From Campylobacterales bacterium (GTDB taxonomy: Bacteria > Campylobacterota > Campylobacteria > Campylobacterales > Sulfurimonadaceae), in contig JAPLGP010000045.1 of the NCBI GenBank assembly GCA_026390075.1, positions 1 to 39,687 of the forward strand: 39,687 nucleotides of DNA. The letters run 5' to 3'. How positions within the stretch are numbered: the first letter of the stretch is position 1; every line of letters begins with the position of its first letter. Shown here piece after piece: positions 5,973 to 30,395 of the stretch. The notes under the pieces were generated by a model, which saw only the letters and a list, made by a program, of their open reading frames with translations, searched no databases and was not told the DNA's origin. A program made the translations under genes and the position numbers.

Positions 5973-7223
5973 ATGGCAGAATTTGAAAAAGCTAACTCCA
6001 TTGGCGAGTGGTTTGACCAGAGATTAAATGTAAAAGCTTTTACAAAAGTGATGATGACGGAGTATTGGATTCCTAAGGAAATCAACTTTTTATGGGCTAT
6101 GGGTGCACTTTTAGTAATGCTATTTAAGCTATTGATAATAACAGGTATATTTTTACTTATGTATTACAAGCCAGATGCAAATATGGCTTTTGATAGTGTA
6201 AATTATACTATTATGCAAGAAGTTGGTTATGGCTGGTTATTTAGAAACATTCATGGTGTTGGTGCATCTGTTGTTTTCTTAGTTATTTATATCCACATGT
6301 TTACGGCTATCTATTACGGCTCATACAAAAAAGGCCGTGAAATGATTTGGCTCTCAGGTATGTTACTTTTCGTACTTTTTTCAGCTGAGGGATTCTCAGG
6401 GTATATGCTTCCATGGGGTCAAATGTCTTATTGGGCAGCGTATGTTATTACTGAAATTTTTGGTGGTATCCCTTTTATAGGTGGTGACCTTGTTATCTGG
6501 ATTCGTGGTAACTTCTATGTATCTGATGCAACTTTAACTCGTTTCTTCATGTTACATGTACTTTTAATTCCAGTTGTACTTATCGGTGCGATAGCTTTCC
6601 ACTTTTATACACTTCGTTTTCCACATGTTAACAACGAAGAGGGTGAATTTTTTGATTACAAAAAAGAGAGTGAAAAATATTTAGCAGGAGACAAAGCAAA
6701 CTCTAAAGTTATAGCTTTCTGGCCAGATTTCTTATCTAAAGATTTTATGGTTATCGCTGTATTTATGGTTTTCTTCTTCTATCTTGTGTTTTACAACAAC
6801 GGTTTCGCAATGGACCCTGTAAACTTTGATAAAGCAGATGGTATGAAAACTCCAGCTCATATCTATCCTGAGTGGTATTTCTTATGGTCTTATGAAGTTC
6901 TTCGTGGTTTCTTCTTTGAAATCGGTGGTGTTTCTGGTAAAGATTTAGGTCTTATGGCATTTGGTTTTGCTCAAGGTATATTCTTGGTATTGCCATGGTT
7001 AGATAGATCTCCTATGGTAAAACCAGCGAACCAAAGACCTGTGTTTAAATACTGGTTCTGGTTATTGATGGCTGACTTGTTTGTTCTTACAATTTTTGGT
7101 AAATTGCCACCGACCGGTATCAATGCTTGGGTAGGTTTCTTTGCATCTGCAACATTCTTAGGATTGTTTATTGCATTGCCTTTCTTAACTAAAATCGAAG
7201 CTAAAATGGTAGGGGGTAAATAA
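5973..7223 (+). CDS. petB: Cytochrome b subunit of cytochrome bc complex
   Basis: The 416-residue integral membrane subunit carries the quinol-oxidation site and two b hemes. Heme-ligand histidines are H94 and H108 in the second helix and H195 and H210 in the fourth. The 14-residue gap in the second pair is like cytochrome b6 rather than mitochondrial cytochrome b, which has 13. The Qo-site PEWY motif is present (IYPEWYFLW), and the protein is full-length rather than split. An AGGGGG ribosome-binding site precedes the ATG. The stop overlaps the petC start (TAATG). Confidence 0.95.
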   Translation: MAEFEKANSIGEWFDQRLNVKAFTKVMMTEYWIPKEINFLWAMGALLVMLFKLLIITGIFLLMYYKPDANMAFDSVNYTIMQEVGYGWLFRNIHGVGASVVFLVIYIHMFTAIYYGSYKKGREMIWLSGMLLFVLFSAEGFSGYMLPWGQMSYWAAYVITEIFGGIPFIGGDLVIWIRGNFYVSDATLTRFFMLHVLLIPVVLIGAIAFHFYTLRFPHVNNEEGEFFDYKKESEKYLAGDKANSKVIAFWPDFLSKDFMVIAVFMVFFFYLVFYNNGFAMDPVNFDKADGMKTPAHIYPEWYFLWSYEVLRGFFFEIGGVSGKDLGLMAFGFAQGIFLVLPWLDRSPMVKPANQRPVFKYWFWLLMADLFVLTIFGKLPPTGINAWVGFFASATFLGLFIALPFLTKIEAKMVGGK

Positions 7224-8281
7224 TGTTTTCTTTAATCGTAGGTCTCGTAGTAGCAGTAGTGCTAATAGTATTAAACATTGTTCTTTCTAAGCTCTCTTTT
7301 CCTAAAGAGGGTAGAATACTTGCTATTTTAGTTATTTTAGTTGGTTATATTTATTGGGGATTTGAGCCATTTGCTCACCATGAAATGCACCCACATGTGG
7401 AACATGCTTCTTACTCATTTGATGGTAAACAAGACATTGAGGCACTAGAACATGCAGGTAAAGATGCAACTGAAATAAAAGCTTTTTGGGCAACAATAGC
7501 TAAAATTGCTGAACATAAAGGAGATGCAGTTGCTGGTAAAGCATTAGTTACTGCTAACTGTACAGGTTGTCACTCTATAAAAAGTGAAGGATTTCCTGAA
7601 ATTATGAGTGATGCTGATGCTGCTGCATCGTATGGTGTTACTCCTCCAGATTTATCAATAGCTGGAAAAGTTTATGATAAAAATTATCTTATAGCGTTTA
7701 TTTCTAATCCTGTAAAAGCTATGCACATTGAGCATAAATATCCAGTAGGCGGAGAGAAAGTTTTCCCTATGCCAGCATCTGACTTTATGCAGCCACAAGA
7801 GATAGCTGATATGGTCGCTTATTTAAGTGATGCAGCACAAAAAGTTCCTGCTCCTACTGTAAAAAAGGGTGCTAGTGAATTTGAAATCTCAAAAGCTGTG
7901 AACAAAGAAGTTTTTGAAACAGCATGTGTTCGTTGTCATGCTATGAATTATGCAGGTATTCATGCTAAAACAACAGCAGAAGTTATGAGTAAATATATTG
8001 GTGCAACTCCTCCTGATTTATCTCAATATATCAGAAGTCGTGGTGAAGAGTATTTACACAACTTTATCAATGACCCACAAAGAAAATTATCAGGAACTGG
8101 TATGCCTCGTGTTGGTCTAACTGAAAAAGCTGAATCTCAAGTAGTAGAATACATGACACAAATCGGCGATAGCAAAAAAGATGAAAGAGAAGCACTAGCA
8201 CCAAAAGTTCTAATCTACTTAACAATCTTAGCGGTATTCGCTCTTCTATGGAAACAAAAAATTTGGAGAGATTTACACTAA
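7223..8281 (+). CDS. petC: Di-heme cytochrome c subunit of bc complex
   Basis: This 352-residue membrane-anchored cytochrome c carries two heme-binding motifs, CTGCH at 113-117 and CVRCH at 235-239. Each is followed by a TPPDLS segment and a methionine-containing stretch (FPMPASDFM, GTGMPRVG) suited to axial ligation. It has an N-terminal hydrophobic helix and a C-terminal anchor (~330-348). Two cytochrome c domains in place of classical c1 are typical of epsilonproteobacterial bc complexes. It passes electrons from the Rieske centre to periplasmic cytochromes. It is the last gene of petABC and is followed by the inverted repeat at 8297-8328. Confidence 0.93.
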   Translation: MFSLIVGLVVAVVLIVLNIVLSKLSFPKEGRILAILVILVGYIYWGFEPFAHHEMHPHVEHASYSFDGKQDIEALEHAGKDATEIKAFWATIAKIAEHKGDAVAGKALVTANCTGCHSIKSEGFPEIMSDADAAASYGVTPPDLSIAGKVYDKNYLIAFISNPVKAMHIEHKYPVGGEKVFPMPASDFMQPQEIADMVAYLSDAAQKVPAPTVKKGASEFEISKAVNKEVFETACVRCHAMNYAGIHAKTTAEVMSKYIGATPPDLSQYIRSRGEEYLHNFINDPQRKLSGTGMPRVGLTEKAESQVVEYMTQIGDSKKDEREALAPKVLIYLTILAVFALLWKQKIWRDLH

Positions 8282-11823: not shown

Positions 11824-14112
11824 TCAAACAAAAATCTTTTTATCTTTAAATATCACTGTTTCTTCTTGAACACTTTTATGTGAAATAGCTCCACTTACCT
11901 CTTGTTCCATAAAATCTAAACCTTGAGGAACTTCTTTTGAATGAAGTTGAATTGCAGTTTGCTTAAAATTCGGCTCACCAGATTTTGGACAAAATGTATT
12001 GGATGTCAAGGTATTTATCAGTTGTGTATTGAAGTGAAAAGGTACAAAAACATTTCCACATGCCACACTTCCTGATACACGAACAACTACATTATCCACT
12101 CTGCCTCTTTTATTTGAGAGCGATATTCTCTCTCCACTTTTTACCTTTAGTTTTAGAGCATCTTCTGGATTTATATCGACCCACGCTTCGGGGGCAAGAT
12201 TATTGAGTATATCTATAGAACGCGTTTTTGTGCGTGTATGCCACTGTTCAACCGTACGACCAGTGTTTAACAAAACTGGAAATTCTGCACAAAGTGGCTC
12301 GTGCATTGCAACCCAATCCAAACAAAGAAGTTTTGCTTTTTCATCTTGAGTTCTAAAAGCGATATCAGGAGAGTAGAGCCTTTTTGTACCCAAAGGTTGC
12401 TTTGCATTACAAGGCCACTGAATTCCGCCATGTTCTTCTAGTAACTCATAAGTCATTCCTGAGTAGTCACAGAGTTGTCCGCGACTCACTTCCTTCCACT
12501 CATCAAAGGCATCTTTTGGAGATTTCCAGTTTGGGAAAAGAAGCGTATTTATCTCATAAAAATATTTTGAAAACTCTATAACTATGTCAAAATCACTTTT
12601 TGTTTTACCCAGAGGTTCAACGGCTTTGTTCGCACGATTACATCTTCGCTCAGAGTTTGTATATGTTCCCTCTTTTTCTCCCCAAGTTGCCGCTGCAAAA
12701 ACTACATCTGCAATCTCTACAGTATCGCTCATAAAGGCATCTTGAACGACAAGCAGGTCTAATTTTGCCAAAGTTTTACGAAGTTTCTCTTGATGGACAA
12801 AACTCACCAGAGGATTTGTAGCAACAACCCAAAGAGCTTTTATTTCACCTCTCTCAATCGCATCAATAATTTCGGCGTATTTATAACCTCTCTTGCTTGG
12901 TATCATGGCATGTGGAACTTTGACTCTATCCGCATACTCTTTGAGTGCCTCTTCATCTCCAAAATTTCTATATCCAGGAAGCGAAGAGGTAAATCCACTC
13001 TCCCTTGTTCCCATAGCGTTGCACTGTCCAGTAATAGAAAATGGTCCCGCTCCTTCTTTGCCGATTTGTCCAGTTAGGAGGTGGAGATTGATGATAGAAC
13101 TCACAGTATCTGTTCCTAAAAACGACTGGTTTACACCCATAGTCCAAGCGGTTAAAACAGCATCTTGGGAAGCGAATTGTCTTGCTATTTCATAAAGAGT
13201 TTTAACATCAATTCCTGTTATATTTGCCACCTCTTGGGGAGGATAATTTTGAAGGTGTTTTTTAAGTTCAGTGTATCCGTTTGTGTTGGCTTTAACATAC
13301 CCCTCATTTTCCCAACCTTGCTCGATTATAATGTACGCCAAACCATTAAAAAGTGCTAAGTCTGTTCTAGCCTTGAGTGGCACAAACAAATCAGCCATCT
13401 GTGCAGTTTTAGAAGCTCTTGGGTCTATAACTATAATCTTAGGTTTGTTTTTATTTTTTGCAATATGGAGTTTTAAGATAGGATGATTATCAGAGATATT
13501 TGCACCAACTAATAGAATTACATTTGCTTTTTCAAAATCTTCATATGCACCAACTGGACCATCTGAACCTAAAGATTGTTTATAGCCCATAACAGCAGAA
13601 GCCATACATAGAGTTGTGTTTCCATCAAAGTTGTTTGTACGAAGACCAAGTTGAACAAACTTTCCTAAAGTATAAAACTCTTCACTTAAAAGCTGTCCAG
13701 TTGAAATAACACCCACAGCTTTTTCACCGTAAGTTTTTGCAATGCGTTTAAACTCATCTGAAACTTTTGTATAAGCTTCATCCCACGAAACAGGTGTGAG
13801 GATGCCACTTTTTTTGATTAAAGGCTGTGTTACTCTCTCTGGTGAGTTAATCAACTGATGTTCACTTAAACCTTTTGGGCAAAGAGTTCCCATGTTTACA
13901 CTATGTTTAGGATTACCTTTTGTATAAACTGCCTTGCCATCTTTCACACCGATGTAAAGACCACATCCTACTCCACAATATCCGCATGTGGAAAAGACCC
14001 ATTTATCTGGCTTTTTTGCATCACTTATCATTCCAAAAACAGGGTCGTTAGAGAGTTTATACTTTGCCTCTTTTATGTCAAAACCTAAAAAATCTTTTAT
14101 TTTACTTATCAT
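11824..14112 (-). CDS. Assimilatory-type nitrate reductase, molybdopterin subunit (NasA/NarB-like)
   Basis: This 762-residue cytoplasmic molybdoenzyme belongs to the NasA/NarB/NapA branch and should reduce nitrate to nitrite. The [4Fe-4S] ligands are C43, C46, C50 and C78 (CGYCGVGC...LCPKG). The Mo-ligand cysteine lies in TTLCMASAVMGYK, the nitrate reductase form of that motif. Further signatures are AWTMGVNQS, TGQCNAMG and LLNTGRTVEQWHTRTKT. No twin-arginine signal is present. It overlaps the fused DmsB-DmsC gene by 4 bp, so electrons probably come from a membrane quinol partner rather than ferredoxin. A second paralogue lies at 19362. An alternative DMSO-reductase-like substrate cannot be excluded. 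Confidence 0.82.
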   Translation of the reverse strand: MISKIKDFLGFDIKEAKYKLSNDPVFGMISDAKKPDKWVFSTCGYCGVGCGLYIGVKDGKAVYTKGNPKHSVNMGTLCPKGLSEHQLINSPERVTQPLIKKSGILTPVSWDEAYTKVSDEFKRIAKTYGEKAVGVISTGQLLSEEFYTLGKFVQLGLRTNNFDGNTTLCMASAVMGYKQSLGSDGPVGAYEDFEKANVILLVGANISDNHPILKLHIAKNKNKPKIIVIDPRASKTAQMADLFVPLKARTDLALFNGLAYIIIEQGWENEGYVKANTNGYTELKKHLQNYPPQEVANITGIDVKTLYEIARQFASQDAVLTAWTMGVNQSFLGTDTVSSIINLHLLTGQIGKEGAGPFSITGQCNAMGTRESGFTSSLPGYRNFGDEEALKEYADRVKVPHAMIPSKRGYKYAEIIDAIERGEIKALWVVATNPLVSFVHQEKLRKTLAKLDLLVVQDAFMSDTVEIADVVFAAATWGEKEGTYTNSERRCNRANKAVEPLGKTKSDFDIVIEFSKYFYEINTLLFPNWKSPKDAFDEWKEVSRGQLCDYSGMTYELLEEHGGIQWPCNAKQPLGTKRLYSPDIAFRTQDEKAKLLCLDWVAMHEPLCAEFPVLLNTGRTVEQWHTRTKTRSIDILNNLAPEAWVDINPEDALKLKVKSGERISLSNKRGRVDNVVVRVSGSVACGNVFVPFHFNTQLINTLTSNTFCPKSGEPNFKQTAIQLHSKEVPQGLDFMEQEVSGAISHKSVQEETVIFKDKKIFV
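12054..12064 (-). repeat. GGCATGTGGAA repeat copy (in nitrate reductase gene)
   Basis: Exact 11-mer on the minus strand; encodes V-ACG-N. Confidence 0.9.
12907..12917 (+). repeat. GGCATGTGGAA repeat copy (in nitrate reductase gene)
   Basis: Exact 11-mer; on the gene's sense strand it encodes VPHA. Confidence 0.9.
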
Positions 14113-15686
14113 CGTTGTTTTCCTACAAAAAATCCACCTGCCATTCCAAGAGGAACGACTGTGGAATAAAATAAAAATCTATCACTCAGTTCACTTGCAA
14201 ACATGAATGCCAAGGAGAGAGATAAAACCAAAGATGCCCAACCAAACGATGTTGAACTGACAAGTACAATAGCCATAAGAGGCAGAATAACCCCGCCTGA
14301 AACTAGAGATATAGTACGAAATACACCGATATTTTTAAAATTCTCATCATAAAGTCTTGCTGTTCTTTTTAGCTGATATGCATTTGGACTCTCACTTTTT
14401 AAAGTTCTGAAATCTTCATAACTAAAAAACATCTGTGCTAAAGCGCCTAACATCCCAAGACTCAAAAGAGGAACTGCAGCTTCAAGCATTCCAAAAATAA
14501 CTGCTATAAAAGCCAGTAAAAACAAACCTATATAAGTAACTCCGAAGAACTTAAGATTTGTTGTTTTTCTGTCCCATGAAGGACGCGTTTTGATTCTGTA
14601 AATCATACTTTGAGCATAAATTCCGTAGATTCCACATGCCAAGGTTACCGCTTCAATTAAAAGTCTTATGGCATGTGGAACTTCTACTATATATAAAATT
14701 ACAACTACATTCATAAAAGTTGTAAACACTCCAAGAGCAACTGCTTCACGGGAGAGCCATGATGTTTTTATATTTTTCATAGCAGTGAGTGCCAAAAATG
14801 GTCTTCCCAAGTGAAGCGCTGAGAGCGGAAGCCCAAGAGCGGCGGGAAGCATCACTAAAAGTGCCATTATCCAGTTCACAGATTCAAAACCAAAGAGACT
14901 CATAACATCCCCTAAAAAGAGTGCCAAAAATCCTCCCAGAGAGATTTGTGTCAATACAGTCATAAAAACAAGTGGCATCTCTGAATGTGCAGGTTTTAAA
15001 ATATGTTCATCCATCTCTTGCAGCTCTGGTAAATTTTCAGGCAATGTGTATCTTGTAGTAGAGTTTGTTATTTTTGCATCGGGAAGAAATGGCATATTTG
15101 CATTTTCGTCCATAGAGTTTTTTAACCACTCCTCTACATTTACACTCTCAATCATAATCGCACCCGATGGACAAGCCTGAACACAGGCAGGAGTTTGCCC
15201 GACATCGAGCCTTTCATGGCACATATGACACTTTGTAACTATCTTTCTCTCTGCATGATACGTAGGTACTCCATAAGGACAATTCCAAGTACAGTACTGA
15301 CAACCGATACATGTCTCATCGTCATGAATAACAATTCCAGTTTCTGCTATTTTTATATAAGATTCCGTCGGACAGCCAATAAGACAAGCTGGGTCAATAC
15401 AGTGGTTACAGCCCATAGAGTTAAAAAGTTGGCTAAAATGAGGAAAAATACCGCCTTGCATCTCGCCGACTCTTCTCCACTTTATATCTGCAGGATTATT
15501 GTTTTGCTCATTACACGCAACTTCACAGCATCTACATCCAACACAAGCAGTTGCATCAAAGTGAAATCTGTACTGTTCTCCTTGTTGTAATTTTGGAATA
15601 TCTATAGAGTAGTTTCCGCATTGCATACCTGTATTTGCTTTATAGCCTATAAAACTCTCTAATGGTGTTTGCATATTATCTGTCAT
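14109..15686 (-). CDS. Fused DmsB-DmsC: four-cluster ferredoxin plus quinol-oxidising membrane anchor
   Basis: The 525-residue protein joins two normally separate subunits. Residues ~40-205 carry four Cys clusters (CVGCRCCEVAC, CNHCIDPACLIGC, CIGCQYCTWNC, CHMCHERLDVGQTPACVQAC), as in DmsB/NrfC-type electron-transfer proteins. Residues ~235-520 hold about eight membrane helices, with DmsC signatures such as GLPLSALHLGRPFLALTAMKNIKTSWLSREA. DmsC proteins oxidise menaquinol. No signal peptide is seen, so the iron-sulfur domain should face the cytoplasm with the catalytic subunit, whose gene overlaps by 4 bp. This would feed quinol electrons to nitrate reduction. The ribosome-binding site is weak (GGA about 8 bases upstream). 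Confidence 0.85.
   Translation of the reverse strand: MTDNMQTPLESFIGYKANTGMQCGNYSIDIPKLQQGEQYRFHFDATACVGCRCCEVACNEQNNNPADIKWRRVGEMQGGIFPHFSQLFNSMGCNHCIDPACLIGCPTESYIKIAETGIVIHDDETCIGCQYCTWNCPYGVPTYHAERKIVTKCHMCHERLDVGQTPACVQACPSGAIMIESVNVEEWLKNSMDENANMPFLPDAKITNSTTRYTLPENLPELQEMDEHILKPAHSEMPLVFMTVLTQISLGGFLALFLGDVMSLFGFESVNWIMALLVMLPAALGLPLSALHLGRPFLALTAMKNIKTSWLSREAVALGVFTTFMNVVVILYIVEVPHAIRLLIEAVTLACGIYGIYAQSMIYRIKTRPSWDRKTTNLKFFGVTYIGLFLLAFIAVIFGMLEAAVPLLSLGMLGALAQMFFSYEDFRTLKSESPNAYQLKRTARLYDENFKNIGVFRTISLVSGGVILPLMAIVLVSSTSFGWASLVLSLSLAFMFASELSDRFLFYSTVVPLGMAGGFFVGKQR
14630..14640 (-). repeat. GGCATGTGGAA repeat copy (in dmsBC fusion)
   Basis: Exact 11-mer on the minus strand; encodes L-ACG-I. 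It forms an inverted pair with the copy at 14670, separated by 29 bp, within coding sequence. Confidence 0.9.
14670..14680 (+). repeat. GGCATGTGGAA repeat copy (in dmsBC fusion)
   Basis: Exact 11-mer; on the sense strand it encodes VPHA. Confidence 0.9.
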
Positions 15687-15741: not shown

Positions 15742-16245
15742 CTAACTATCCTTTTTATAGTGTTGAATATTTTTTTTGGCTAATTGTGAGAATTTATCCT
15801 TTTCTTCTACATCAAAAAAAGCATCTTTTGGTATAAATAAAAATGTAACGCCGTGATAAAGTAAAAAGCCATTTTTTAAAGAAAGAACTTCTAAAATTGC
15901 ATCCCATTTTATGAGAGTTTCATCAACTTTTATGCCAGCATTATCAGCGCTCATAATAAATTTATGATTTTTATTGGAAGATGCTTCAAAACTTTTTAAG
16001 AGTATTATTTTTCTTAAAGGCCAACGCATGGCATACCAGTAAATTACTAAAACAGTGGAAATAATGAGTAAACCATATACATCTTTTTTTAAAGCACCAA
16101 CAACACCAAACTGAGTAAAAGCAATAAATATCCATCCTAAAAATCTTTTAGGAGAATGCTTCATTTCATAATCATAGGTTGCTTTACTCGCTTTAAGAAA
16201 TGTTTCTTTGTTCCAAACATACACAATGTCAATAGCACTAGACAT
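15742..16245 (-). CDS. YcxB-like membrane protein
   Basis: The 167-residue protein has two hydrophobic helices (roughly residues 35-50 and 55-72), then a soluble C-terminal domain with KWDAILEVLSLKNGFLLYHGVTFLFIPKDAF. That W-x-x-[IL]-x-E-V...Y-x-x-x-x-x-x-x-[IL]-P-K-x-x-F pattern is typical of the YcxB/PF14317 domain, whose function is unknown. I place the start at the ATG 16243-16245; an upstream TTG would add 6 residues. It overlaps the gene before it (ATGTCTAG), so the two are coupled. Confidence 0.65.
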   Translation of the reverse strand: MSSAIDIVYVWNKETFLKASKATYDYEMKHSPKRFLGWIFIAFTQFGVVGALKKDVYGLLIISTVLVIYWYAMRWPLRKIILLKSFEASSNKNHKFIMSADNAGIKVDETLIKWDAILEVLSLKNGFLLYHGVTFLFIPKDAFFDVEEKDKFSQLAKKNIQHYKKDS

Positions 16246-16843
16246 GTTCTTCACACTTATCAATCAAAAGTTCATTCTTTGTAATGCAATGCGTATCTTC
16301 AAGTTCATGTATAAGATTCAGAGTATCGTTATATTTTTCATCATATATCTTTTTGTTCGTTGCATAAAGCTTTCTTTGCTTTCTTGCATAAAGCCAAGCA
16401 AAAAATACAGAGGATGCGAAAAGACCATATATCCATAATTGCCACTCTTTTAGGTCGAGTAAAACTATAAAATATTGCACTGAAAAAAGTACAAAAAATT
16501 CGATTGAAAAGATGATAACAAGTGTAGAACTTTGTTCAAAATCTAGTGTGTATTTTTCTATCTTTCTTAAATGGGATAGATTTTTATTTACCGTTTTAGC
16601 TTTGAATTTGCAATCATCTTTTAAATCATTCAGATTTATATCCCGCAAATGAATGTTGCTTAAATTATATTCAACATTTGTTTGCATATACTCTTTTAAA
16701 AGTTGTGGATTTTCTTCCATAACTTCTAATATTTTTTTTTCATTCACTTTGGTATTTGAAGAAATTTTACACACATCTTGTAAAATAAGGTCATACAAAC
16801 CAACAGTTTTTATTTCATGAGCCACTCTGTTTAAATTTATCAA
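16238..16843 (-). CDS. Hypothetical protein with two central membrane helices
   Basis: I do not recognise this 201-residue protein. An N-terminal helical, charged region (1-100) is followed by two membrane helices (about 108-128 and 135-153) and a charged, coiled-coil-like C-terminal tail. The start is a TTG with AGGA 6 bases upstream (TTTAGGATAATTC). Its end overlaps the YcxB-like gene, so the two probably work together. The pair sits between the gNOR operon, from which a terminator separates it, and the nitrate reductase operon. Confidence 0.55.
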   Translation of the reverse strand: MINLNRVAHEIKTVGLYDLILQDVCKISSNTKVNEKKILEVMEENPQLLKEYMQTNVEYNLSNIHLRDINLNDLKDDCKFKAKTVNKNLSHLRKIEKYTLDFEQSSTLVIIFSIEFFVLFSVQYFIVLLDLKEWQLWIYGLFASSVFFAWLYARKQRKLYATNKKIYDEKYNDTLNLIHELEDTHCITKNELLIDKCEEHV

Positions 16844-16895: not shown

Positions 16896-18557
16896 TTATG
16901 CAATTTCTGGTTCTATGCCATAAGAAGCTGTTCTGTCTTTGGCAGGTAAAAATATACCTATGAGACCTTTTAATCCAACGCTCATAATAATATTGTATAA
17001 AAAGAGTACCCATGCTAAAAGTAACATACTTCCGGCTACAGCTGCCAATATCATATCGGTTTGGAATTGTCCATCTATGTAAAGGTGACGACGAAGCATA
17101 CCGTCAAGTCCTGCCATACCCATAAATGCGCCCATACCGATACCACCGATGAGGTGTAACCAAAAGTGAGCATTTGCCAATTTTTTAGAGTATAACTCTG
17201 TGTTGTTCGTCACAATTGGCCATAAAACAAAAACGGCACTGTAGAGAGTCATATAGAGACCAACAATAAGTGCAATATGTACATGCGCTCCAATAATCCA
17301 CTGGGTATTGTGCAATACTCTGTTCATTCCCATGTCTGCTTGAATAATTGCAGCGGGAACAGCCAAACCAAAACCTAACAAGCCACCAAGAAGATATTTC
17401 AACTCCATGGTTACTTTAAGCGGACGAGCTTTCCATAAGGTGACTAAAGTAATAAACAGTGCCAAACCTTGAGTAAGAAGTTCAAAGGCTGTAACCATCT
17501 CACCAGAGATAAGTTTCATCATGTCAGGTTGACCTTGATCACCCAATAAATGGTGAGACCAAACCATCCAAGAAACAAGAAGTTCCAGCATAAGTGCAGC
17601 ACGAGCAACATTTTCCATAAACAATTTTTGACCTGTAATCAATGTAGCTAAAAGATACCATGAACCGGCAACATAGATTAAAACCAATCCATCAGCAACA
17701 AGGTCAAGTCCCCACCAAAAAAAGTTTTTGTATAAAAGAGCATCAATAGCGGTAACATCCAGATGAAGACCTCCTAAATCAGCTAACAAAAATATAAGCA
17801 CCAATACACCTGCGCCTAAAATAACTACGGCATCTAAAAATGTATCAACAGTACCTCTAAAGATAGCAACAACAGGAAGTGCTAATGCAGGCTCTTTTGT
17901 ATAGGGAGGTTTACCTATAAGTTTATTAAAAAGATTGAGCATCCCATCAATCCCAAAACCAGAGATTAAAAGTTCTTTTGTAGTTTTATCTTTATGAACA
18001 CCAACTCTTGCAAAAATAGTTGCATAGATGTTATAAATAAATCCGAAAGTACCAACCATAATCAGTGCAACACCGACAATAAATACAATACCGCCTATGA
18101 TATGAAATTGCTCGGTATCGGCAGGAAGCGGCCAATAAAGTGTATAAAGTGGAGCATATTGCCATACAAAGGCAGCTATCCAAGCCAATAATGTGCCGAG
18201 AGTAATCATTATCCATACAAAGTTGGCTAATTTTATACTGTAAAGCGGTTTCTTAGTTAAGTAAGGAACTAAAAACATAAATGCGCCAAATACAAGCTGA
18301 TAAGTTGAGCCAAATATACCTATTATTGGATGAACTGTCATAATTGAGAAAAAATGTTCTGGTTGAAAGAACATTTCAGGAATTGGGTTCTGTGGTATTT
18401 TTCCAACCTCTACCATTCTCATAATCATTCCCTCTAAGGCAACTAAACCATAAAATAAAAATGACATTACAACAGCACGAAGCGTAACTTTTTGTAAAGC
18501 GTTTAAGCTTGTATGGTCAAAATTTGTCCCACTCATTAAATTCTTTGTAAAACTCAT
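16896..18557 (-). CDS. Heme-copper-family nitric oxide reductase, catalytic subunit (gNOR type)
   Basis: The 553-residue, roughly 14-helix protein is a heme-copper oxidase superfamily member. Heme and metal ligands can be placed: H76 (TVHP, low-spin heme), H335-H336 (WSHHLLGD), and H425 and H427 (GAHVHIALIVG). The helix VI motif, H-P-E-V-Y in oxidases and W-W-x-V-H-L-W-V-E in NorB, reads WWGLDLVADG here, so D285 replaces the active-site metal-ligand histidine and D289 sits at the NorB Glu position. The oxidase Tyr-His crosslink motif is absent. A two-His-one-Asp site is what I recall for the gNOR group of Campylobacterota, so NO reduction to N2O is the likely reaction. It overlaps the subunit II gene by 4 bp and lies downstream of operator module A. 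Confidence 0.8.
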   Translation of the reverse strand: MSFTKNLMSGTNFDHTSLNALQKVTLRAVVMSFLFYGLVALEGMIMRMVEVGKIPQNPIPEMFFQPEHFFSIMTVHPIIGIFGSTYQLVFGAFMFLVPYLTKKPLYSIKLANFVWIMITLGTLLAWIAAFVWQYAPLYTLYWPLPADTEQFHIIGGIVFIVGVALIMVGTFGFIYNIYATIFARVGVHKDKTTKELLISGFGIDGMLNLFNKLIGKPPYTKEPALALPVVAIFRGTVDTFLDAVVILGAGVLVLIFLLADLGGLHLDVTAIDALLYKNFFWWGLDLVADGLVLIYVAGSWYLLATLITGQKLFMENVARAALMLELLVSWMVWSHHLLGDQGQPDMMKLISGEMVTAFELLTQGLALFITLVTLWKARPLKVTMELKYLLGGLLGFGLAVPAAIIQADMGMNRVLHNTQWIIGAHVHIALIVGLYMTLYSAVFVLWPIVTNNTELYSKKLANAHFWLHLIGGIGMGAFMGMAGLDGMLRRHLYIDGQFQTDMILAAVAGSMLLLAWVLFLYNIIMSVGLKGLIGIFLPAKDRTASYGIEPEIA

Positions 18558-19144
18558 TTTGAACCTCCATCTTTACAGCCTACAACTTCTAAAATATTTT
18601 TTATTTTCATTAAATTTTCTCCATGCTCATTATATTGGGCAGGACCAGAATATTCCGTAGAATCCAAATCAAATACACCGTTGTGGTGAAAAGTCCAAAG
18701 AATATCGTTTTTACTTCCCGGATTTACCTGCATCTGCATTACCATCGATCCATCTTGGCGAAACAGTCCAAATCCATATGTTAAATCTTTACTGACAACA
18801 TTAAAAAGAATTTTTTCATCACACTGAACAATGATTTTTTGAGATGGAAGTATCCATTTATGTTTAGCAATCGCAAAATCATAACTAGCATCTGGTTTAA
18901 TTTCATGTCTGCTAATATCCTGTGATACCCATGGAATCGTATTATAAGTAAATATATGATGTCCTACCCCGCCTGTAACTAAAAATGCCATATACCAATA
19001 AAATGGAATACGCACGACTGATTTAGCATCTTTTCTGATTAGGTTATACCCAAACCATGCAACAACTGATATAATCATTGCTGAATATATTGTATAAGCA
19101 ACCCAATGAAAAGACAATAACTCTAATGAGTCTGTAAATATCAT
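18554..19144 (-). CDS. gNOR subunit II, cupredoxin-like, CuA ligands lost
   Basis: The 196-residue protein resembles cytochrome oxidase subunit II. Two N-terminal membrane helices (about 15-34 and 48-66) precede a periplasmic cupredoxin-like domain (from ~95). The CuA binding loop C-x-E-x-C-G-x-x-H-x-x-M appears as S162-T-E164-Y-S166-G-P-A-Q170. The upstream His position (S-x-D-x-x-H) is Y123. Both cysteines are gone, so CuA cannot form and the electron donor may be a quinol or another carrier. An AGGGGGAG ribosome-binding site precedes the ATG at 19144. The gene leads the gNOR operon, with a TATAGT -10 and operator module A upstream. Confidence 0.75.
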   Translation of the reverse strand: MIFTDSLELLSFHWVAYTIYSAMIISVVAWFGYNLIRKDAKSVVRIPFYWYMAFLVTGGVGHHIFTYNTIPWVSQDISRHEIKPDASYDFAIAKHKWILPSQKIIVQCDEKILFNVVSKDLTYGFGLFRQDGSMVMQMQVNPGSKNDILWTFHHNGVFDLDSTEYSGPAQYNEHGENLMKIKNILEVVGCKDGGSK

Positions 19145-19176: not shown

Positions 19177-19300
19177 ACTATAGCACACTTTTAATGTAAA
19201 TTTAATATTTAGTTGTATAATTTTTATACAATATAGCAGTAAAATTAGAATTTAAGGGGAATGTTATTGGATTATATAAGCATACTTAATGAAAAATTAA
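19177..19300. promoter_or_regulatory. Shared divergent regulatory module, copy A (gNOR operon)
   Basis: The dyad TTGTATAATTTTTATACAA (19213-19231; 8-bp arms, 3-base centre) is flanked by TTAATGTAAATTTAA (19191-19205) and TTAATGAAAAATTAA (19286-19300). On the minus strand TATAGT (19177-19182) is the -10 box for the gNOR operon and places the dyad near -52. Spacing matches copies B and C, including the half that points right although no gene lies there. Confidence 0.75.
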
Positions 19301-19361: not shown

Positions 19362-21365
19362 TTACTGCAAATCATTATGTGCTTCTATATACTTTTGAAT
19401 TTTTACAGCACTATGATTGTAGTCAGGTTGCAACGATTCTCTGTCTAGTAAATCATTTGTTAAATAGTTTACTTGTGTGTTGCTTATGGGGATAAATAGA
19501 GTTTTTTTTCTTATGCTCTCTGTTACAAGTGCTTTGGTTACAAGTTCCCCTCTGCTCGAGATAACCTTAATACTCTCGCCATTTTTGATATTGAGATATT
19601 CAGCATCTTGAGGGTTTATTTCACAAAAATTCAACTCTTTATATTTGAGCAAAGTTGTAGGTTGATTTGTTTTTGTTCCACTATGCCATTGGTCTCTTGT
19701 ACGACCTGTTAAGAGAATGAATGGATATTCTAAAGATGTTTTTTCACTGAGAAGTTTATTCTCTACAAAAAATAAATTCCCCTTTTTGTCAGGAGTTAAA
19801 AAGTTTTTGATTTTTTCTCCCCAAATAAATGGCTTTTTAGAGAGTTCATCATACGAGGCTTCACTTATATCCATATAGTCATTGAGTTTTGTCATTTGTT
19901 GATACTCCTCAAATATCTCTTTTGGATTTTTATAATTGAACTCTTTTTCATACCCTAATCCACATGCCAAGAGTTTAAATATTTCCCAATCAGGTTTACA
20001 CTCTATGGAAGTACGCGTTAGTTTTTCTTGCTTTGTGATAGTTCTATCCAAATTAGTTTGCGTTCCCTCTTTTTCTCCCCATGGAGCTGCTGGTAGCCTT
20101 ATGTGTGCAAATTTGGCTGTTTGAGAATTTTCATACGCATTTATTTCAACAACCATGGGAATTCTTGCGATAAGCGCTTCAACTTTATTTCTATTTGGCA
20201 AGTGATACACGGGGTCGGTGTGACAGATGATGAGAACATCTAAATTTGCTTCGAGCATCTGCGTTGCTGTTAATCCTACTTTGTTGTTTATGCTTGTTGT
20301 ATTCCAAAAATTTGATACTTTTTGTATGCTTTTTGCATCAAATCCTAAATGAACAGCTAAAGAGGTAGAAAGACCTCCAACTTCTCTTCCACCCATTGCA
20401 TTTGGCTGACCCGTAAGACTGAGCGGTCCATTTCCCTCTTTAAATATTTTTCCGCTTAAAAGATGTGTATTGATAAGTGCGAGGTTTTTATCTACTCCTT
20501 GAACGGATTGGTTGAGTCCCATGGTCCAAGCAGTTATGATATTTTTACTCTCTTTGTAGAGTTCAAAAAATGCGTCAAACTGCTCACTTGTTAAACCTGT
20601 TCTTTTGAGCATTTTTGTTGTGGGAACTCTTTTAAATTTATTTTTTAGGAGTTCAAAGTTGTTTACATGATTTGCAACAAACTCTTTATTGTATAACTCC
20701 TCATCGATTAATCTTTTTGATATAAGATTGAAAAAGTCTATATCACTCCCAACTTTTATAGGAAGATAGATATCTGCAATCTTCGCTGTGTCTGTAAATC
20801 TTGGGTCAATGACAACCACTTTTAGACCATATTTTTTTGCTTTTTTAATTTGGTTGTGAAAGACAACATGTGCTTCGGCTGTATTTGCACCAGCTAAAAT
20901 AAGTAAGTTAGTTTTAAAAATATCATCCATTCTCAGCGGTACAAAATCCGCCCCTATAGATTTTTTGTAGGCTACAATGGCACTTGACATGCATGTACGG
21001 CTATTTGTGTCCACATTGTTTGTTCCAATAAAACCTTTGCCAAGTTTATTTGCTATGTAATAATCTTCTGTTAAAAGTTGCCCAGAGAGGTAAAAACCTA
21101 TTTTGTCTTTTGGAGTTTGTTTTATTTTTTCAGCAATTGTATCAATACTCTCCTGCCACGACGAAATTTTATATTCATCTTTTATACTCTCTCTTAGAAG
21201 TGGTCTGAGAAGTCTTGTGGGTGTATCTATACTTATGAGTTCAGAAATTCCTTTAGAACAAAGATTGCCCTCATTTATAGGATAGGCTATATCCCCTATA
21301 AGTGTATCTTTGTTAAATTCGAGCCCACAACCCACCCCACAATATCCACATACTGACTTTATCAT
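19362..21365 (-). CDS. narB: Assimilatory nitrate reductase, molybdopterin subunit (NarB-like)
   Basis: The 667-residue enzyme is a second, shorter member of the same cytoplasmic nitrate reductase family. The [4Fe-4S] ligands are C6, C9, C13 and C36 (VCGYCGVGC...LCSKG). The Mo-ligand Cys is in NSRTCMSSAIVAYK. AWTMGLNQSVQG, TGQPNAMGGREVGG and LLTGRTRDQWHSGTKT are nitrate/formate-type bis-MGD motifs. It has no signal peptide and no fused reductase domain, so it needs an external donor (ferredoxin or flavodoxin in NarB enzymes). It is divergent from nrtA across operator module B, so uptake and reduction are probably co-regulated. The -10 on the minus strand is TATAAT (21394-21399). Confidence 0.87.
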   Translation of the reverse strand: MIKSVCGYCGVGCGLEFNKDTLIGDIAYPINEGNLCSKGISELISIDTPTRLLRPLLRESIKDEYKISSWQESIDTIAEKIKQTPKDKIGFYLSGQLLTEDYYIANKLGKGFIGTNNVDTNSRTCMSSAIVAYKKSIGADFVPLRMDDIFKTNLLILAGANTAEAHVVFHNQIKKAKKYGLKVVVIDPRFTDTAKIADIYLPIKVGSDIDFFNLISKRLIDEELYNKEFVANHVNNFELLKNKFKRVPTTKMLKRTGLTSEQFDAFFELYKESKNIITAWTMGLNQSVQGVDKNLALINTHLLSGKIFKEGNGPLSLTGQPNAMGGREVGGLSTSLAVHLGFDAKSIQKVSNFWNTTSINNKVGLTATQMLEANLDVLIICHTDPVYHLPNRNKVEALIARIPMVVEINAYENSQTAKFAHIRLPAAPWGEKEGTQTNLDRTITKQEKLTRTSIECKPDWEIFKLLACGLGYEKEFNYKNPKEIFEEYQQMTKLNDYMDISEASYDELSKKPFIWGEKIKNFLTPDKKGNLFFVENKLLSEKTSLEYPFILLTGRTRDQWHSGTKTNQPTTLLKYKELNFCEINPQDAEYLNIKNGESIKVISSRGELVTKALVTESIRKKTLFIPISNTQVNYLTNDLLDRESLQPDYNHSAVKIQKYIEAHNDLQ

Positions 21366-21393: not shown

Positions 21394-21520
21394 ATTATAC
21401 CTTCTATTTTAATGTAAAGTTAAGATTATATTGTATAAAAAACATACAATAAATAGTATATTAAACCATCTATTTCCTGATATAATTTTCTCAACACAAC
21501 ATGTTAAATGTAAACTTAAG
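21394..21520. promoter_or_regulatory. Shared divergent regulatory module, copy B (narB / nrtA)
   Basis: The dyad TTGTATAAAAAACATACAA (21431-21449; 6-7-6) has box 1 TTAATGTAAAGTTAA (21409-21423) on one side and box 2 TTAAATGTAAACTTAA (21504-21519) on the other. -10 boxes TATAAT lie at 21394-21399 (minus, for narB) and 21481-21486 (plus, for nrtA), each placing the dyad centre about 53 bp upstream of the inferred start. Confidence 0.8.
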
Positions 21521-25285: not shown

Positions 25286-26923
25286 ATGGCACAAAACAAT
25301 ATAAAATCTTCAGGCTTTTCCCTCGCAAAACTAAAAGAGCTGCGAGGGGATGATTTTTACGATGTTAAAACTATAGGCAATTTAACGGTTGCCATAGTTT
25401 GTGATGGAGTTGGGAGCGCAGATGAAGGCGCACAAGCAGCTTCACGAGTGACAACTTATCTTATCAATAACTTTAAAATTCGTCCTAAGAGTTGGAGTAT
25501 TGAAAAATCTTTAAAAACTTTTATCAAATCAATCAACTCCATTTTATACAAAGAATCGATGATAAGTTACGAGAGAACGGAGTTGGTTACGACTTTAACC
25601 ATCGTTGTGATTGAGGGCAACCGACTTTATGGCGCAAATGTTGGAGATAGCAGAGTCTATCTTTATAGAGATAAAAAGATAAATCAACTCTCCCTTGACC
25701 ATGTCATGAGCGAGGTCGGATATGAAAATGTTTTGAGTGAGGCGATAGGCATAAAGAGTGATGTAGAGCCTTACTACTTTGAAAATATTGTCCAAAAAGA
25801 TGACAAAATTTTACTTTGCAGTGATGGACTTTATACCATAATGAGTAAAAACAGACTTGAAGATGGCATAAGTTTAGGTGCGACAGCTTTAGTAAAAAAA
25901 GCAAGTAAACTGATGGATGATAATCTCCCCGATGATACGACCGCAGTCATTGTTGAGATTTTAGAAGCCAATGAGATGGAGATATTAAGAAGGCAAAATC
26001 TTCCAATTCCTCAAAGTTTAAAAAAAGCTCAAATCATAGATGGATATATACTCGAAAAATCACTTATCCAAAATGAGAGAACTTGGCTTTGTTCAAAAAA
26101 AAATAAGCACTACATTCTCAAATTTGCTCCTAAAGAAGCGATAGAGGATGAAAATATCTTGGACTTATTTGTCAAAGAGGCGTGGAATGCTAAAAGATTA
26201 AAAGCTGATTTTTTTCCAAAAGCTGTTATTCCAAAAAATAGAACTGAGCGTTATTATGTGATGCAAACATTTAAAGGTGAAGATTTAGATAAATATCTCA
26301 CACACAAACAAATAACGATAGATGACACAATCCAACTCGCACAGACTCTCTTAAAAATGTCGCAATTTTTACTCAAATACGACTTGGTGCATGGCGATAT
26401 AAAACCCAATAATATTATGATTGCAAAAGATGCAGATGAGAATTTAGAGTTTAAAATAATAGACTATGGAAGTATAACCGAGATTTTTTCAACGGACACA
26501 CGAGCAGGAACGCCAAGCTATTTATCCCCAGAGAGATTTTTAAATGAATCTATTAGTGAAACAACAGAAATTTTTTCCATAGGAGTAACGCTCTACCTTG
26601 CTTTAACTGGAAAATTCCCTTATGGTGAGATAGAACCTTTTCAAACGCCAACATTTAAAGATGCAACAAAACCAAGTGTTTATAATAAAAATATCCCTAC
26701 TTGGCTCGATAGTGTCATTTTGCGCTCCATCGCAATTGAGAAAGACAAAAGATATCAGCACTACTCAGAGATGCTTTATGAACTGCAATCTCCCCAAAAT
26801 GTCAAAGCCTTTTTTCCTAAAAATAGCTCCATCATACAAAGGTCGCCAGTCGTTTTTTACAGAACCGCTTTTACAATTATGTTTATTGTAAATATTGTAT
26901 TGTTGGTGTGGTGTAAGTTGTAA
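25286..26923 (+). CDS. PP2C phosphatase - Ser/Thr kinase fusion with C-terminal anchor
   Basis: The 545-residue protein joins two opposing activities. Residues ~1-235 are a PP2C phosphatase with metal-binding motifs CDGVGSADEG (D40), GANVGDSRVYLYR, LLCSDGLY and PDDTTAVIV. Residues ~250-510 are a Hanks-type kinase: ATP-site Lys K279, catalytic loop HGDIKPNN (D371), metal-binding D393 in IDYGS (DYG instead of DFG), and activation segment AGTPSYLSPERF. A hydrophobic helix at ~525-542 anchors it at the C-terminus with no outside domain. I recall similar bifunctional proteins beside assimilatory nitrate genes in Pseudomonas, so a role in nitrate assimilation control is plausible. It lies between nrtABD and nirA. 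Confidence 0.88.
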   Translation: MAQNNIKSSGFSLAKLKELRGDDFYDVKTIGNLTVAIVCDGVGSADEGAQAASRVTTYLINNFKIRPKSWSIEKSLKTFIKSINSILYKESMISYERTELVTTLTIVVIEGNRLYGANVGDSRVYLYRDKKINQLSLDHVMSEVGYENVLSEAIGIKSDVEPYYFENIVQKDDKILLCSDGLYTIMSKNRLEDGISLGATALVKKASKLMDDNLPDDTTAVIVEILEANEMEILRRQNLPIPQSLKKAQIIDGYILEKSLIQNERTWLCSKKNKHYILKFAPKEAIEDENILDLFVKEAWNAKRLKADFFPKAVIPKNRTERYYVMQTFKGEDLDKYLTHKQITIDDTIQLAQTLLKMSQFLLKYDLVHGDIKPNNIMIAKDADENLEFKIIDYGSITEIFSTDTRAGTPSYLSPERFLNESISETTEIFSIGVTLYLALTGKFPYGEIEPFQTPTFKDATKPSVYNKNIPTWLDSVILRSIAIEKDKRYQHYSEMLYELQSPQNVKAFFPKNSSIIQRSPVVFYRTAFTIMFIVNIVLLVWCKL

Positions 26924-27037: not shown

Positions 27038-28942
27038 TTACAAACCTATAAAAGGCAGTAACTCAGAAAAAACAACGGCTCTATTTTCTTCTTTTGTATT
27101 TAAGATTTTTTCACACATCTGAATTAGATTTGTATCGGCATGTGGAACTAACTCTTGTATGCTTTGTAGCTTCTCATTTTTTAAAACATTTGTAAATCTA
27201 TCATACGCTGAGTAGGCTTCTTTTCCTGCTAATTTTGCATAAACTCTTCTGCCAAGCTCAAAAACTTCAAACTCTTCGTTTTTACCTGTTTTAGTATTTA
27301 TCGCAAATCCTAACTCCAACTCTATGTTTTTATCTCTCAAATACGCACCAAACTGCATCATAAAACCAATATATGCCGATGAATACTGCGATAAAACTCT
27401 CTCATGAAACTGCTCAAAACTCTCACTTGAACCTTTGTATTTTTTGTACTCCAACATAAGTGTTTCAACATAAAGGTGCGCATATCTCAGAGGTGCAGAT
27501 TTTATTACTGTGTATGCCTCAACGCCTTCGCTCACGAGTTTTCCGCCAAGACTGATATGCACAGCATTCTCAGTTTCACCATTCACTTTTGCCTTGCATC
27601 CTTCAAAGCCAATATCTCCCAAACCATGGATACCGCAACCTTTTACACACGCCGACCAGTACATTCTTACTCGTCCTGATTCAAGAGGCACTTTTTGGCT
27701 TAAATACTCAGACATTTTTATCGCATCACTCTTGTTTTCAATCACTCCAAATGGACAATGCTCTGATCCAGCACACGCGATGAGATGGTTAAAATAGGGT
27801 GTATTTATATTTTTGTATATCTGAAATAAACTCTCATTTAAAAGTGAAGGAACATCTTGCACACCTAAAATATAAAGACTCTGCTCCATGTCAAATCGTA
27901 TCTCTTTGTTGCCATAACGCTCACTCAGATTTGCTACATCTATCATTGCCGAACCACTAAATATACCTGATGGAACGACAACATGCACACCAAAAGAGCC
28001 ATCACGAAGCTGTACTTTTCCTTGGTCTGGGTCGTAATAATCTATCTTTGTCATAGTTTCGCCAGAAGTTGCAAAATCAACGCCTGCATTTTCTCTGATA
28101 GCACTTGAAATCTCAGCCATGCCAACTGCTTCTATGAGAAAATGAAGTCTATTTTTATTTCTGTTATCACGAAAGCCAAATCTTTTAAAGATATCTGCGA
28201 TAGAAGCAAAAGCTTTGAGAACTTCTTCTTCATTTGCTAAAAATATATCCGCATTTTTTGCAATAGCACCAACTTTTCCACCGAGATACATGTTATAGCC
28301 ATAAACGCCATCTTTTTGCGCTAAAACGAAACAGCAGTCATGCGAAAAAATATTACATCTATTGGACAAAGAACCTGTAATGGCGGTATTAAATTTTCTA
28401 GGAAGTGTTGAAATCCAATCAGGATTATGCAAAAACATTCGTTGAAGTTTTAAAAGAAGTTTTTGTGATGGCAAAACATTATCCAATCCAAGTCCATCCA
28501 ATGGGTCATTCATAATATTTCTAAAGTTATCAACTCCCGTTTGATAGGCATCAATGCCAACAGCAGAAAGCTTCTCTAAAAGTGTAGGAATATCTTCAAT
28601 GCGCAAATATCTTAGTTCACATTGCGAGCGTGTTGTAAGGTCTATATAATCATTTGCATACTCTTTTGCGCACTCACCAATCACTCGTGCTTGAGAAGAG
28701 TTCAAATGTCCACCAGCAATACGAAGCTTTATCATAAATCGCTCAGGAGTTGCGGGTCTATCATAGATTCCAAAGCATTTTAAAAAGTATTTTTTATCAT
28801 CCTCAGGAATGGAGTCGTATCCATTTTTTGCATACTCTTGCAGTTTTTCAAACGCTTCTAGAGGACTTTTTGAGTTTTTAATCTCTTCAATTTTATTAAG
28901 TTTCTTATTTCTTATTTCACTTACTTTTTTGAGTGCTTCCAT
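27038..28942 (-). CDS. nirA: Ferredoxin-type assimilatory nitrite reductase
   Basis: The 634-residue enzyme reduces nitrite to ammonium with six electrons through siroheme and a [4Fe-4S] cluster. The bridging cluster ligands are C390, C396, C432 and C436 (ACAGSEHCPFG and SACVKGCGIHG). The N-terminal half-domain has RFMIKLRIAGGHL and IDLTTRSQCELRYLRIEDIP. No flavin or NADH domain is present, so ferredoxin is the likely donor. It is longer than plant and cyanobacterial NirA (about 510-560), with extra C-terminal residues. AAGGAG lies 8 bases before the ATG. It is divergent from narK across module C. Confidence 0.93.
   Translation of the reverse strand: MEALKKVSEIRNKKLNKIEEIKNSKSPLEAFEKLQEYAKNGYDSIPEDDKKYFLKCFGIYDRPATPERFMIKLRIAGGHLNSSQARVIGECAKEYANDYIDLTTRSQCELRYLRIEDIPTLLEKLSAVGIDAYQTGVDNFRNIMNDPLDGLGLDNVLPSQKLLLKLQRMFLHNPDWISTLPRKFNTAITGSLSNRCNIFSHDCCFVLAQKDGVYGYNMYLGGKVGAIAKNADIFLANEEEVLKAFASIADIFKRFGFRDNRNKNRLHFLIEAVGMAEISSAIRENAGVDFATSGETMTKIDYYDPDQGKVQLRDGSFGVHVVVPSGIFSGSAMIDVANLSERYGNKEIRFDMEQSLYILGVQDVPSLLNESLFQIYKNINTPYFNHLIACAGSEHCPFGVIENKSDAIKMSEYLSQKVPLESGRVRMYWSACVKGCGIHGLGDIGFEGCKAKVNGETENAVHISLGGKLVSEGVEAYTVIKSAPLRYAHLYVETLMLEYKKYKGSSESFEQFHERVLSQYSSAYIGFMMQFGAYLRDKNIELELGFAINTKTGKNEEFEVFELGRRVYAKLAGKEAYSAYDRFTNVLKNEKLQSIQELVPHADTNLIQMCEKILNTKEENRAVVFSELLPFIGL
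27137..27147 (+). repeat. GGCATGTGGAA repeat copy (in nirA)
   Basis: Exact 11-mer near the nirA 3' end; on the sense strand it encodes VPHA. Confidence 0.9.
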
Positions 28943-28971: not shown

Positions 28972-29095
28972 ATTATACAACTTACTTTTATGTAAAATTA
29001 ATGTATGCTGTATGATTTTTATACAATTTAATGATAACTTACTCTACATTAGTTGATATAATTTTGCATCACAACGATACTTAATGAAAAGTTAA
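28972..29095. promoter_or_regulatory. Shared divergent regulatory module, copy C (nirA / narK)
   Basis: The dyad CTGTATGATTTTTATACAA (29008-29026) is flanked by box 1 TTTATGTAAAATTAA (28987-29001) and box 2 TTAATGAAAAGTTAA (29081-29095). -10 boxes TATAAT are at 28972-28977 (minus, for nirA) and 29057-29062 (plus, for narK), again putting the dyad centre near -52 for both. Confidence 0.8.
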
Positions 29096-29114: not shown

Positions 29115-30395
29115 ATGGCAGGATTTAAAGCATTAAAAGGACAAGGACACTGGCCAACACTCTTGGCGGCATTTTTGTATTTCGATTTTAGTTTTATGGT
29201 GTGGACTATGCTAGGGCCACTCGCAACAGAAATAAGTGAAGCGTTGGCAGTGGGCGGGTTTATTATCAGTGCAGGTCAAAAAGCAACTCTTTTATCTATT
29301 CCTATATTGGCGGGTGCGATTTTAAGAATTATTCTTGGCTTTGGTGTGGATAAGTTTGGTGCGAAAAAAACTGCTCTAGTTTCACAAGCTGTTGTAATCG
29401 CTGTACTTTTTTATGCTTATTTTAGAGGTGCGGGTATCACTTATGATGAGCTTTTATTGGTAGCATTTGGTCTTGGTTTTGCAGGAGCTTCTTTTGCAGT
29501 AGCCCTTCCACAAGCAGGTCAATGGTATCCACCAAAACTTCAAGGTGTTGTTTTAGGTATCGCAGGTGCGGGAAATATAGGTGTGGTCATCGACTTCTTA
29601 TTTGCTCCAAAAATCGCTGAACTTTGGGGATGGGAATCTGTGTTTTTAGTGGGAGCGGTTCTCTCAACTATCATCTTTTTTACTTATATGTTCATGGCAA
29701 AAGATGCTCCAGCAGATGTTTATGTAGCAAGACCTAAAAAATTAAAAGATTATGGCAAGTTACTTAAAGACAAAGATACTTGGTGGTTTAACCTTTTTTA
29801 TGCTGTAAGTTTTGGTGGATTTGTTGGATTTGCAGGGTATATGAAGGTGTATCTTATGAGTACATATCAAGTAGAAATGAGTGCTTTTGGTCTGGATTTT
29901 TTGGATGAGGGAAATGTGAAAGTGGTTGCAGGGTATTTTGGTGCTCTTTGTATCTTCGCTGGAGCAATTCTTAGACCTGTAGGTGGAGCGATAGCAGATA
30001 GTTTTGGTGGCGTTAAATCTCTGTATATATTTTTTGGTACAGTTGCACTTTTATCCATTTTAAATGCAACGATGACTCTGCCATTTGGCTTTGCGATACT
30101 TGTTCTGTTTTTAATCATGGCAAACTTAGGTATGGCAAATGGTGCAGTATTTCAGTTAGTGCCACAAAGATTTGGTAAAGATATAGGAATCATGACAGGC
30201 ATCATCGGAGCTGCGGGTGGTTTTGGCGGTACTGCTCTTATCAATACTTTTGGATGGAGTAAAGGCACATTTGATGGCTATGGAGCAGGTTTCATGATAT
30301 TTGCAGGGGTTGTTCTTGTCGCTATTATGGGAATAAGTTTAGTAAAAACAAGATGGAGAACAACATGGGGTGTCGCTTCTGGAGGTAGAATTTAG
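29115..30395 (+). CDS. narK: Nitrate/nitrite transporter, MFS family
   Basis: The 426-residue, 12-helix major facilitator protein matches NarK/NasA nitrate-nitrite transporters. The nitrate signatures are GAGNIGVVIDFLFAPKIAELWGW in the fifth-helix region and GMANGAVFQLVPQRFGKDIGIMTGIIGAAGGFGG in the eleventh-helix region. The N-terminal LTLLAAFLYFDFSFMVWTMLGPLA-like segment is also typical. It shares a divergent control region with nirA, so nitrate entry or nitrite exchange for assimilation is likely. AAGGA precedes the ATG. It is followed by an inverted pair of the window repeat. Confidence 0.93.
   Translation: MAGFKALKGQGHWPTLLAAFLYFDFSFMVWTMLGPLATEISEALAVGGFIISAGQKATLLSIPILAGAILRIILGFGVDKFGAKKTALVSQAVVIAVLFYAYFRGAGITYDELLLVAFGLGFAGASFAVALPQAGQWYPPKLQGVVLGIAGAGNIGVVIDFLFAPKIAELWGWESVFLVGAVLSTIIFFTYMFMAKDAPADVYVARPKKLKDYGKLLKDKDTWWFNLFYAVSFGGFVGFAGYMKVYLMSTYQVEMSAFGLDFLDEGNVKVVAGYFGALCIFAGAILRPVGGAIADSFGGVKSLYIFFGTVALLSILNATMTLPFGFAILVLFLIMANLGMANGAVFQLVPQRFGKDIGIMTGIIGAAGGFGGTALINTFGWSKGTFDGYGAGFMIFAGVVLVAIMGISLVKTRWRTTWGVASGGRI

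Follow-up and report, generated by a model that had tools for sequence, protein, structure and literature searches.

A predicted gNOR with two active-site aspartates and a quinol-oxidase-like site in a Campylobacterales genome

We analysed a 39,687-nt stretch of DNA from a Campylobacterales bacterium (hereafter the window) and found two adjacent genes of this sulfur bacterium that probably encode a gNOR, an enzyme that would reduce nitric oxide (NO) at a two-carboxylate site, be fed by menaquinol, and remove NO beside a cNOR. The assignment to gNOR, also proposed in an earlier sequence-only reading of this DNA, is supported by a clade of its own in the tree, an Asp at the position of the oxidase Tyr, a subunit II devoid of CuA, and the gene context. 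The class itself has been described (Hemp & Gennis 2008; Sievert et al. 2008; Murali et al., cited in PMC8756737 and PMC12569097), and the enzyme of the window shares with the published gNOR the Asp at the Tyr position, a cupredoxin-fold subunit II, the absence of proton channels, the occurrence in Sulfurimonas and Sulfurovum, and the proposed quinone donor; nothing in the cited passages speaks against its membership. The same passages do not describe the ligand Asp (D285), accessory genes, or promoter boxes, and what we report here as new is the assignment of D285 and D289, the residues at the quinol site, a conserved accessory gene, and two promoter boxes. The literature yielded no activity measurement for any gNOR, and NO reduction is therefore predicted by analogy.

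The gNOR gene block and its homologues

The genes of subunit I and subunit II, both on the minus strand, are intact and have an overlap of 4 bp (Table 1). Subunit I reaches no curated NCBIfam cut-off, and subunit II matches no family in the family search. The structure comparison shows that the fold of subunit I is that of heme-copper enzymes (Z 30-34), among which cNOR, cbb3, and A-type oxidases match equally well, and that the structure predicted for subunit II (mean pLDDT 86.7) has its matches in the corresponding subunits of ba3, bo3, and aa3-600. A subunit II gene was found at all 116 testable gNOR loci. The membrane protein encoded directly after subunit I, for which no Pfam or NCBIfam family match was obtained, is likely an assembly or accessory subunit, and the YcxB-like gene is present at 59 of 68 clade A loci and at none of 12 clade B loci.

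About 45 of the 397 genomes of the same class, the source genome included, contain strong homologues. The gNOR homologues include Sulfurimonas and Sulfurovum genomes and form two clades, one about 78-99% and the other 61-68% identical to the window sequence. Phage records contain no gNOR homologue, and plasmid records contain oxidases of low identity only. We kept 80 contigs with homologues and compared 111 distinct subunit I sequences, in which D285, D289, H335, H336, H425, H427, and H68 are invariant, while H76, E42, and R47 are invariant or show at most one variant. The invariance of D285 rules out a sequencing error or a lone mutation as its origin. The statement of the sequence-only reading that Asp replaces the helix-VI His while H335, H336, H425, and H427 are kept is borne out, and all of these residues can be read directly from the protein.

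Table 1. Positions in the window of the gNOR gene block, its key codons, and the palindromes (clades A and B, gNOR clades)
Feature	Position	Strand	Basis or remark
YcxB-like protein gene, 173 aa, fourth gene of block	15742..16263	-	Pfam YcxB 4.3e-9
Conserved membrane protein gene, 201 aa, directly after subunit I	16238..16843	-	95/96 clade A, 9/16 clade B loci
gNOR subunit I, COX1-family heme-copper catalytic subunit, 553 aa	16896..18557	-	Pfam COX1 8.7e-50
H425 (active-site heme) to H427 (low-spin heme) codons, helix X HxH	17277..17285	-	invariant; aligned with oxidase HxH
H335-H336 codons, helix-VII metal ligands	17550..17555	-	invariant
D289 codon, position of oxidase Tyr / cNOR Glu (i+4)	17691..17693	-	invariant 111/111, motif comparison
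D285 codon, helix-VI active-site metal ligand position (His in other families)	17703..17705	-	invariant 111/111, spacing to HH = 50
H76 codon, helix-II low-spin heme ligand	18330..18332	-	conserved; TxH motif aligned
H68 codon, position of bo3 quinol-site His98	18354..18356	-	invariant; aligned with quinol oxidases
E42 codon, position of bo3 quinol-site Asp75	18432..18434	-	conserved; aligned with quinol oxidases
gNOR subunit II, 196 aa, two TM helices and cupredoxin domain without CuA	18554..19144	-	profile match to CuA domains
S162-T-E-Y-S166 codons, replace CuA C-x-E-x-C	18647..18661	-	profile alignment; compare CyoA SASYSGPG
Y123 codon, replaces CuA His1	18776..18778	-	profile alignment
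Palindrome TGTAT-N7-ATACA, upstream of gNOR operon	19214..19230		86 to 70 bp before start codon
Palindrome TGTAT-N7-ATACA, between nasA-like gene (19362-21365, -) and nitrate ABC transporter gene nrtA (+)	21432..21448		
Palindrome TGTAT-N7-ATACA, between NIR_SIR-family nirA-like gene (27038-28942, -) and MFS transporter gene narK (29115-30395, +)	29009..29025		

Subunit II and the electron donor

Alignment of subunit II to the CuA domain profile places Y123 on the first His and S162 and S166 on both Cys, confirming the loss of these three ligands that the sequence-only reading had pointed out. The loss of the second His had escaped it; this residue has no counterpart in subunit II, where Q, G, A, E, or M stands at position 170. 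Y123 never varies, position 162 is Ser in 109 of 112 sequences, and position 166 is Ser in 100 and Ala in 12. As its sequence shows, subunit II retains a cupredoxin fold yet is unable to hold CuA. No heme c motif is present in subunit II, and its STEYSGP segment resembles SASYSGPG of E. coli CyoA, the CuA-less subunit of a quinol oxidase.

D75 and H98 are quinol-site residues of bo3, and when gNOR is aligned with E. coli CyoB, its E42 and H68 fall on these two positions. The combination of an acid at bo3 position 75 and a His at position 98 is found in all five quinol oxidases compared, in both gNORs aligned, and in none of ten cytochrome c oxidases (donor classes as given by annotation), one of which has the His without the acid. 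Two of the four bo3 quinol-site positions (R71, D75, H98, and Q101) are thereby kept, with L38 in place of R71 and S71 in place of Q101. The quinol oxidases bo3 and aa3-600 thus share with gNOR a CuA-less cupredoxin subunit II and the acid and His at the quinol-site positions, while gNOR differs from them in lacking the HPEVY motif, the Tyr, the proton-channel residues, R71, and Q101. This quinol-oxidase-like site suggests that gNOR may receive electrons straight from the membrane quinone pool; the E42 and H68 residues support direct quinol oxidation without proving it. Menaquinol would be bound near E42 and H68, which lie in helices I-II, and its electrons would then pass through the low-spin heme.

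Electrons could instead reach an NO-reducing gNOR from a soluble or membrane cytochrome c, which we consider rather unlikely. The bc1 genes in the window (Rieske, 5437-5961; cytochrome b, 5973-7223; cytochrome c, 7223-8281) would make reduced cytochrome c available, and the missing R71 and Q101 also fit such a donor, but subunit II has neither CuA nor a heme c motif, the conserved block contains no cytochrome c gene, H68 is invariant, and E42 is conserved. The literature, moreover, defines gNOR as a quinone-oxidizing and non-electrogenic enzyme (PMC8906906). The sequence-only reading was thus right that CuA is lost, but the question of the donor that it raised already had a published prediction, with which the residue evidence agrees.

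Active site and class of subunit I

The metal ligands of gNOR are two His and one Asp, and this set is present in subunit I as D285, H335, and H336. A- and B-type oxidases have a spacing of 49 residues between the helix-VI His and the HH pair, cbb3 one of 50, and c/qNOR one of 51; the spacing is 50 for D285 and 46 for D289, and D285 therefore occupies the helix-VI ligand position. The HMMER profile alignment puts D289 on the His and opens a 4-residue gap in helix VI, but the spacing argues against it. D289, which lies one helical turn beyond D285, was missed as the residue at the Tyr/Glu position by the sequence-only reading.

The helix-VI motif reads FWWGLDLVADG in gNOR and FWWVVHLWVEG in cNOR, with H replaced by D and E replaced by D. 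cNOR and qNOR share with gNOR the pattern WW-x2-[H/D]-L-x2-[E/D]-G, with its carboxylate at i+4, and the ligands of the low-spin and active-site hemes. They differ in having a ligand His in place of the Asp and a heme c subunit in place of the cupredoxin-type one, and in belonging to another clade. Based on these alignments, H76 and H427 would bind the low-spin heme and H425 the active-site heme, while D285, H335, and H336 would hold the second metal with D289 adjacent. The two carboxylates take positions equivalent to those of the His and Glu at the non-heme iron in cNOR, which suggests that this metal may be iron rather than copper. At such a site, two NO molecules would be converted to N2O. 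We regard it as very unlikely that the substrate is another nitrogen compound or that NO is converted differently (e.g., by dismutation). An active site unlike that of every characterised family and the redundancy with cNOR speak for such a reading; against it, the carboxylate at i+4 takes the cNOR Glu position and no sequence feature indicates another substrate.

In heme-copper oxygen reductases, CuB is held by three His and accompanied by a cross-linked Tyr, whereas subunit I has D285 and D289 at the corresponding positions; the helix-VI His and Glu of cNOR/qNOR are likewise absent, and subunit I falls outside the c/qNOR clade. Among the proton-channel and motif markers checked, the K-channel Lys is replaced by A366 and the Glu of the oxidase HPEVY motif by V287. 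As K- and D-channel residues are missing, the reaction probably pumps no protons. A published table lists the gNOR active-site residue as D and its proton channels as 0 (PMC8756737). Because D289 matches this D and both D285 and D289 are family traits, the enzyme belongs to the published predicted class and is not a new one.

In a tree built without named gNOR, eNOR, or sNOR sequences, the gNOR sequences group in a single clade (100/99) that is separate from the A-type, C-type, and c/qNOR enzymes. The clade branches beside A- and B-type oxidases (86/87 at the join, with a long B-type branch), and its overall alignment is better to oxidases than to cNOR. This placement, the stronger profile alignment to A-type enzymes, and a palindrome shared with the cbb3 promoter (described below) could point to an enzyme whose altered site reduces oxygen, or both O2 and NO. 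Such an activity is unlikely, since the active-site Tyr is missing, one ligand His is replaced, K- and D-channel residues are absent, and the context consists of nitrate, nirS, and cNOR genes; in addition, a NOR descended from an oxidase would yield the same tree.

Regulation and genomic context of the predicted NO reductase

An FNR/NNR-type box (TTGAY-N4-RTCAA) is present in 70 of 88 non-redundant gNOR upstream regions, against 0.3 expected from shuffled sequence. In the window, this box was not found at the gNOR promoter, which carries the palindrome TGTAT-N7-ATACA. Only six such sites occur in the 2.4-Mb genome, three of them in the window (Table 1), and the reversed control pattern has none; the calculated chance that at least three of six randomly placed sites fall in the window is about 1e-4. 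A fourth site lies 91 bp before ccoN, a cbb3 oxidase gene (L001; G000:C21:67028-67044). The common palindrome, rare genome-wide, substantiates the proposal of the sequence-only reading that gNOR shares control with nitrate assimilation genes. At three loci (L018, L095, and L114), both the FNR/NNR-type box and the palindrome precede gNOR, upstream of subunit II, and the palindrome may therefore be an older second operator. Palindrome matches inside the subunit II coding region at several clade B loci (e.g., L032, L115, and L145) were left out as promoter sites. NsrR is not supported as the protein that binds the palindrome; the two clear Rrf2-family genes of the genome show no tie to it.

The source genome also has a cNOR, located in a nirS cluster, where an FNR-type box (C59:4502) lies about 1.1 kb before norB. 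The two NORs thus appear to be under different control here, and since a cNOR is already present, denitrification as such does not require gNOR. Among the genomes compared, nirS is found in 40 of 45 gNOR-positive and 9 of 20 gNOR-negative genomes (Fisher p 3e-4), and cNOR in 39 of 45 and 8 of 20 (Fisher p 2e-4), with gNOR-negative genomes taken from the same family and kinship ignored in both tests. In five genomes, gNOR lies within 13 kb of nirS, and by gene order it adjoins norB, nirS, and heme d1 genes there. Nitrate assimilation genes are near gNOR in part of the family, with strong nirA-like matches within about 10 kb in nine genomes. In three genomes with nrfA, and with no nirS or cNOR found, gNOR is divergent from an Rrf2-family gene with a C-x5-C-x5-C motif (L143:11134-11544, L150, and L151), and the three Cys of this regulator would be expected to bind an iron-sulfur cluster that could sense NO.

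Two further features recur in this context. A gene for a molybdopterin nitrate-reductase-like protein and an adjoining 4Fe-4S/DmsC fusion (11824-15686, minus strand), which recur near gNOR, nirA-like, and MFS transporter genes, look like a quinol-linked cytoplasmic nitrate reductase. A fusion of PP2C phosphatase and protein kinase domains (25286-26923, plus strand) recurs in nitrate assimilation clusters adjoining gNOR.

Because the palindrome is common to the gNOR operon, the nitrate assimilation genes, and the cbb3 operon, a likely role of gNOR in this lineage would be to remove NO arising from cytoplasmic nitrate/nitrite processing, beside the separate cNOR of the nirS cluster. The link to cytoplasmic nitrate/nitrite reduction drawn by the sequence-only reading holds for the arrangement in this lineage, which recurs in part of the family, but it is too narrow for gNOR generally, since most operons carry the FNR/NNR-type box, nirS and cNOR are enriched, and some loci have nir-nor clusters or an Rrf2 gene opposite. 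We tentatively propose a fuller scenario, in which gNOR is a menaquinol-driven NO reductase that has both a cNOR-like iron site, made of two Asp and two His, and a quinol site like that of bo3. In the Sulfurimonas lineage of the window it would have moved from FNR/NNR-type control into a regulon with nitrate assimilation and cbb3, so that cNOR would serve denitrification while gNOR would clear NO from cytoplasmic nitrate handling.

Surveys of N2O sources count gNOR among the nitric oxide reductases, although the literature yielded no measurement of its activity. Testable predictions of the donor, metal, and physiological role of this enzyme in abundant vent and sediment Campylobacterota follow from the conserved E42 and H68, the site with two Asp, and the promoter boxes.
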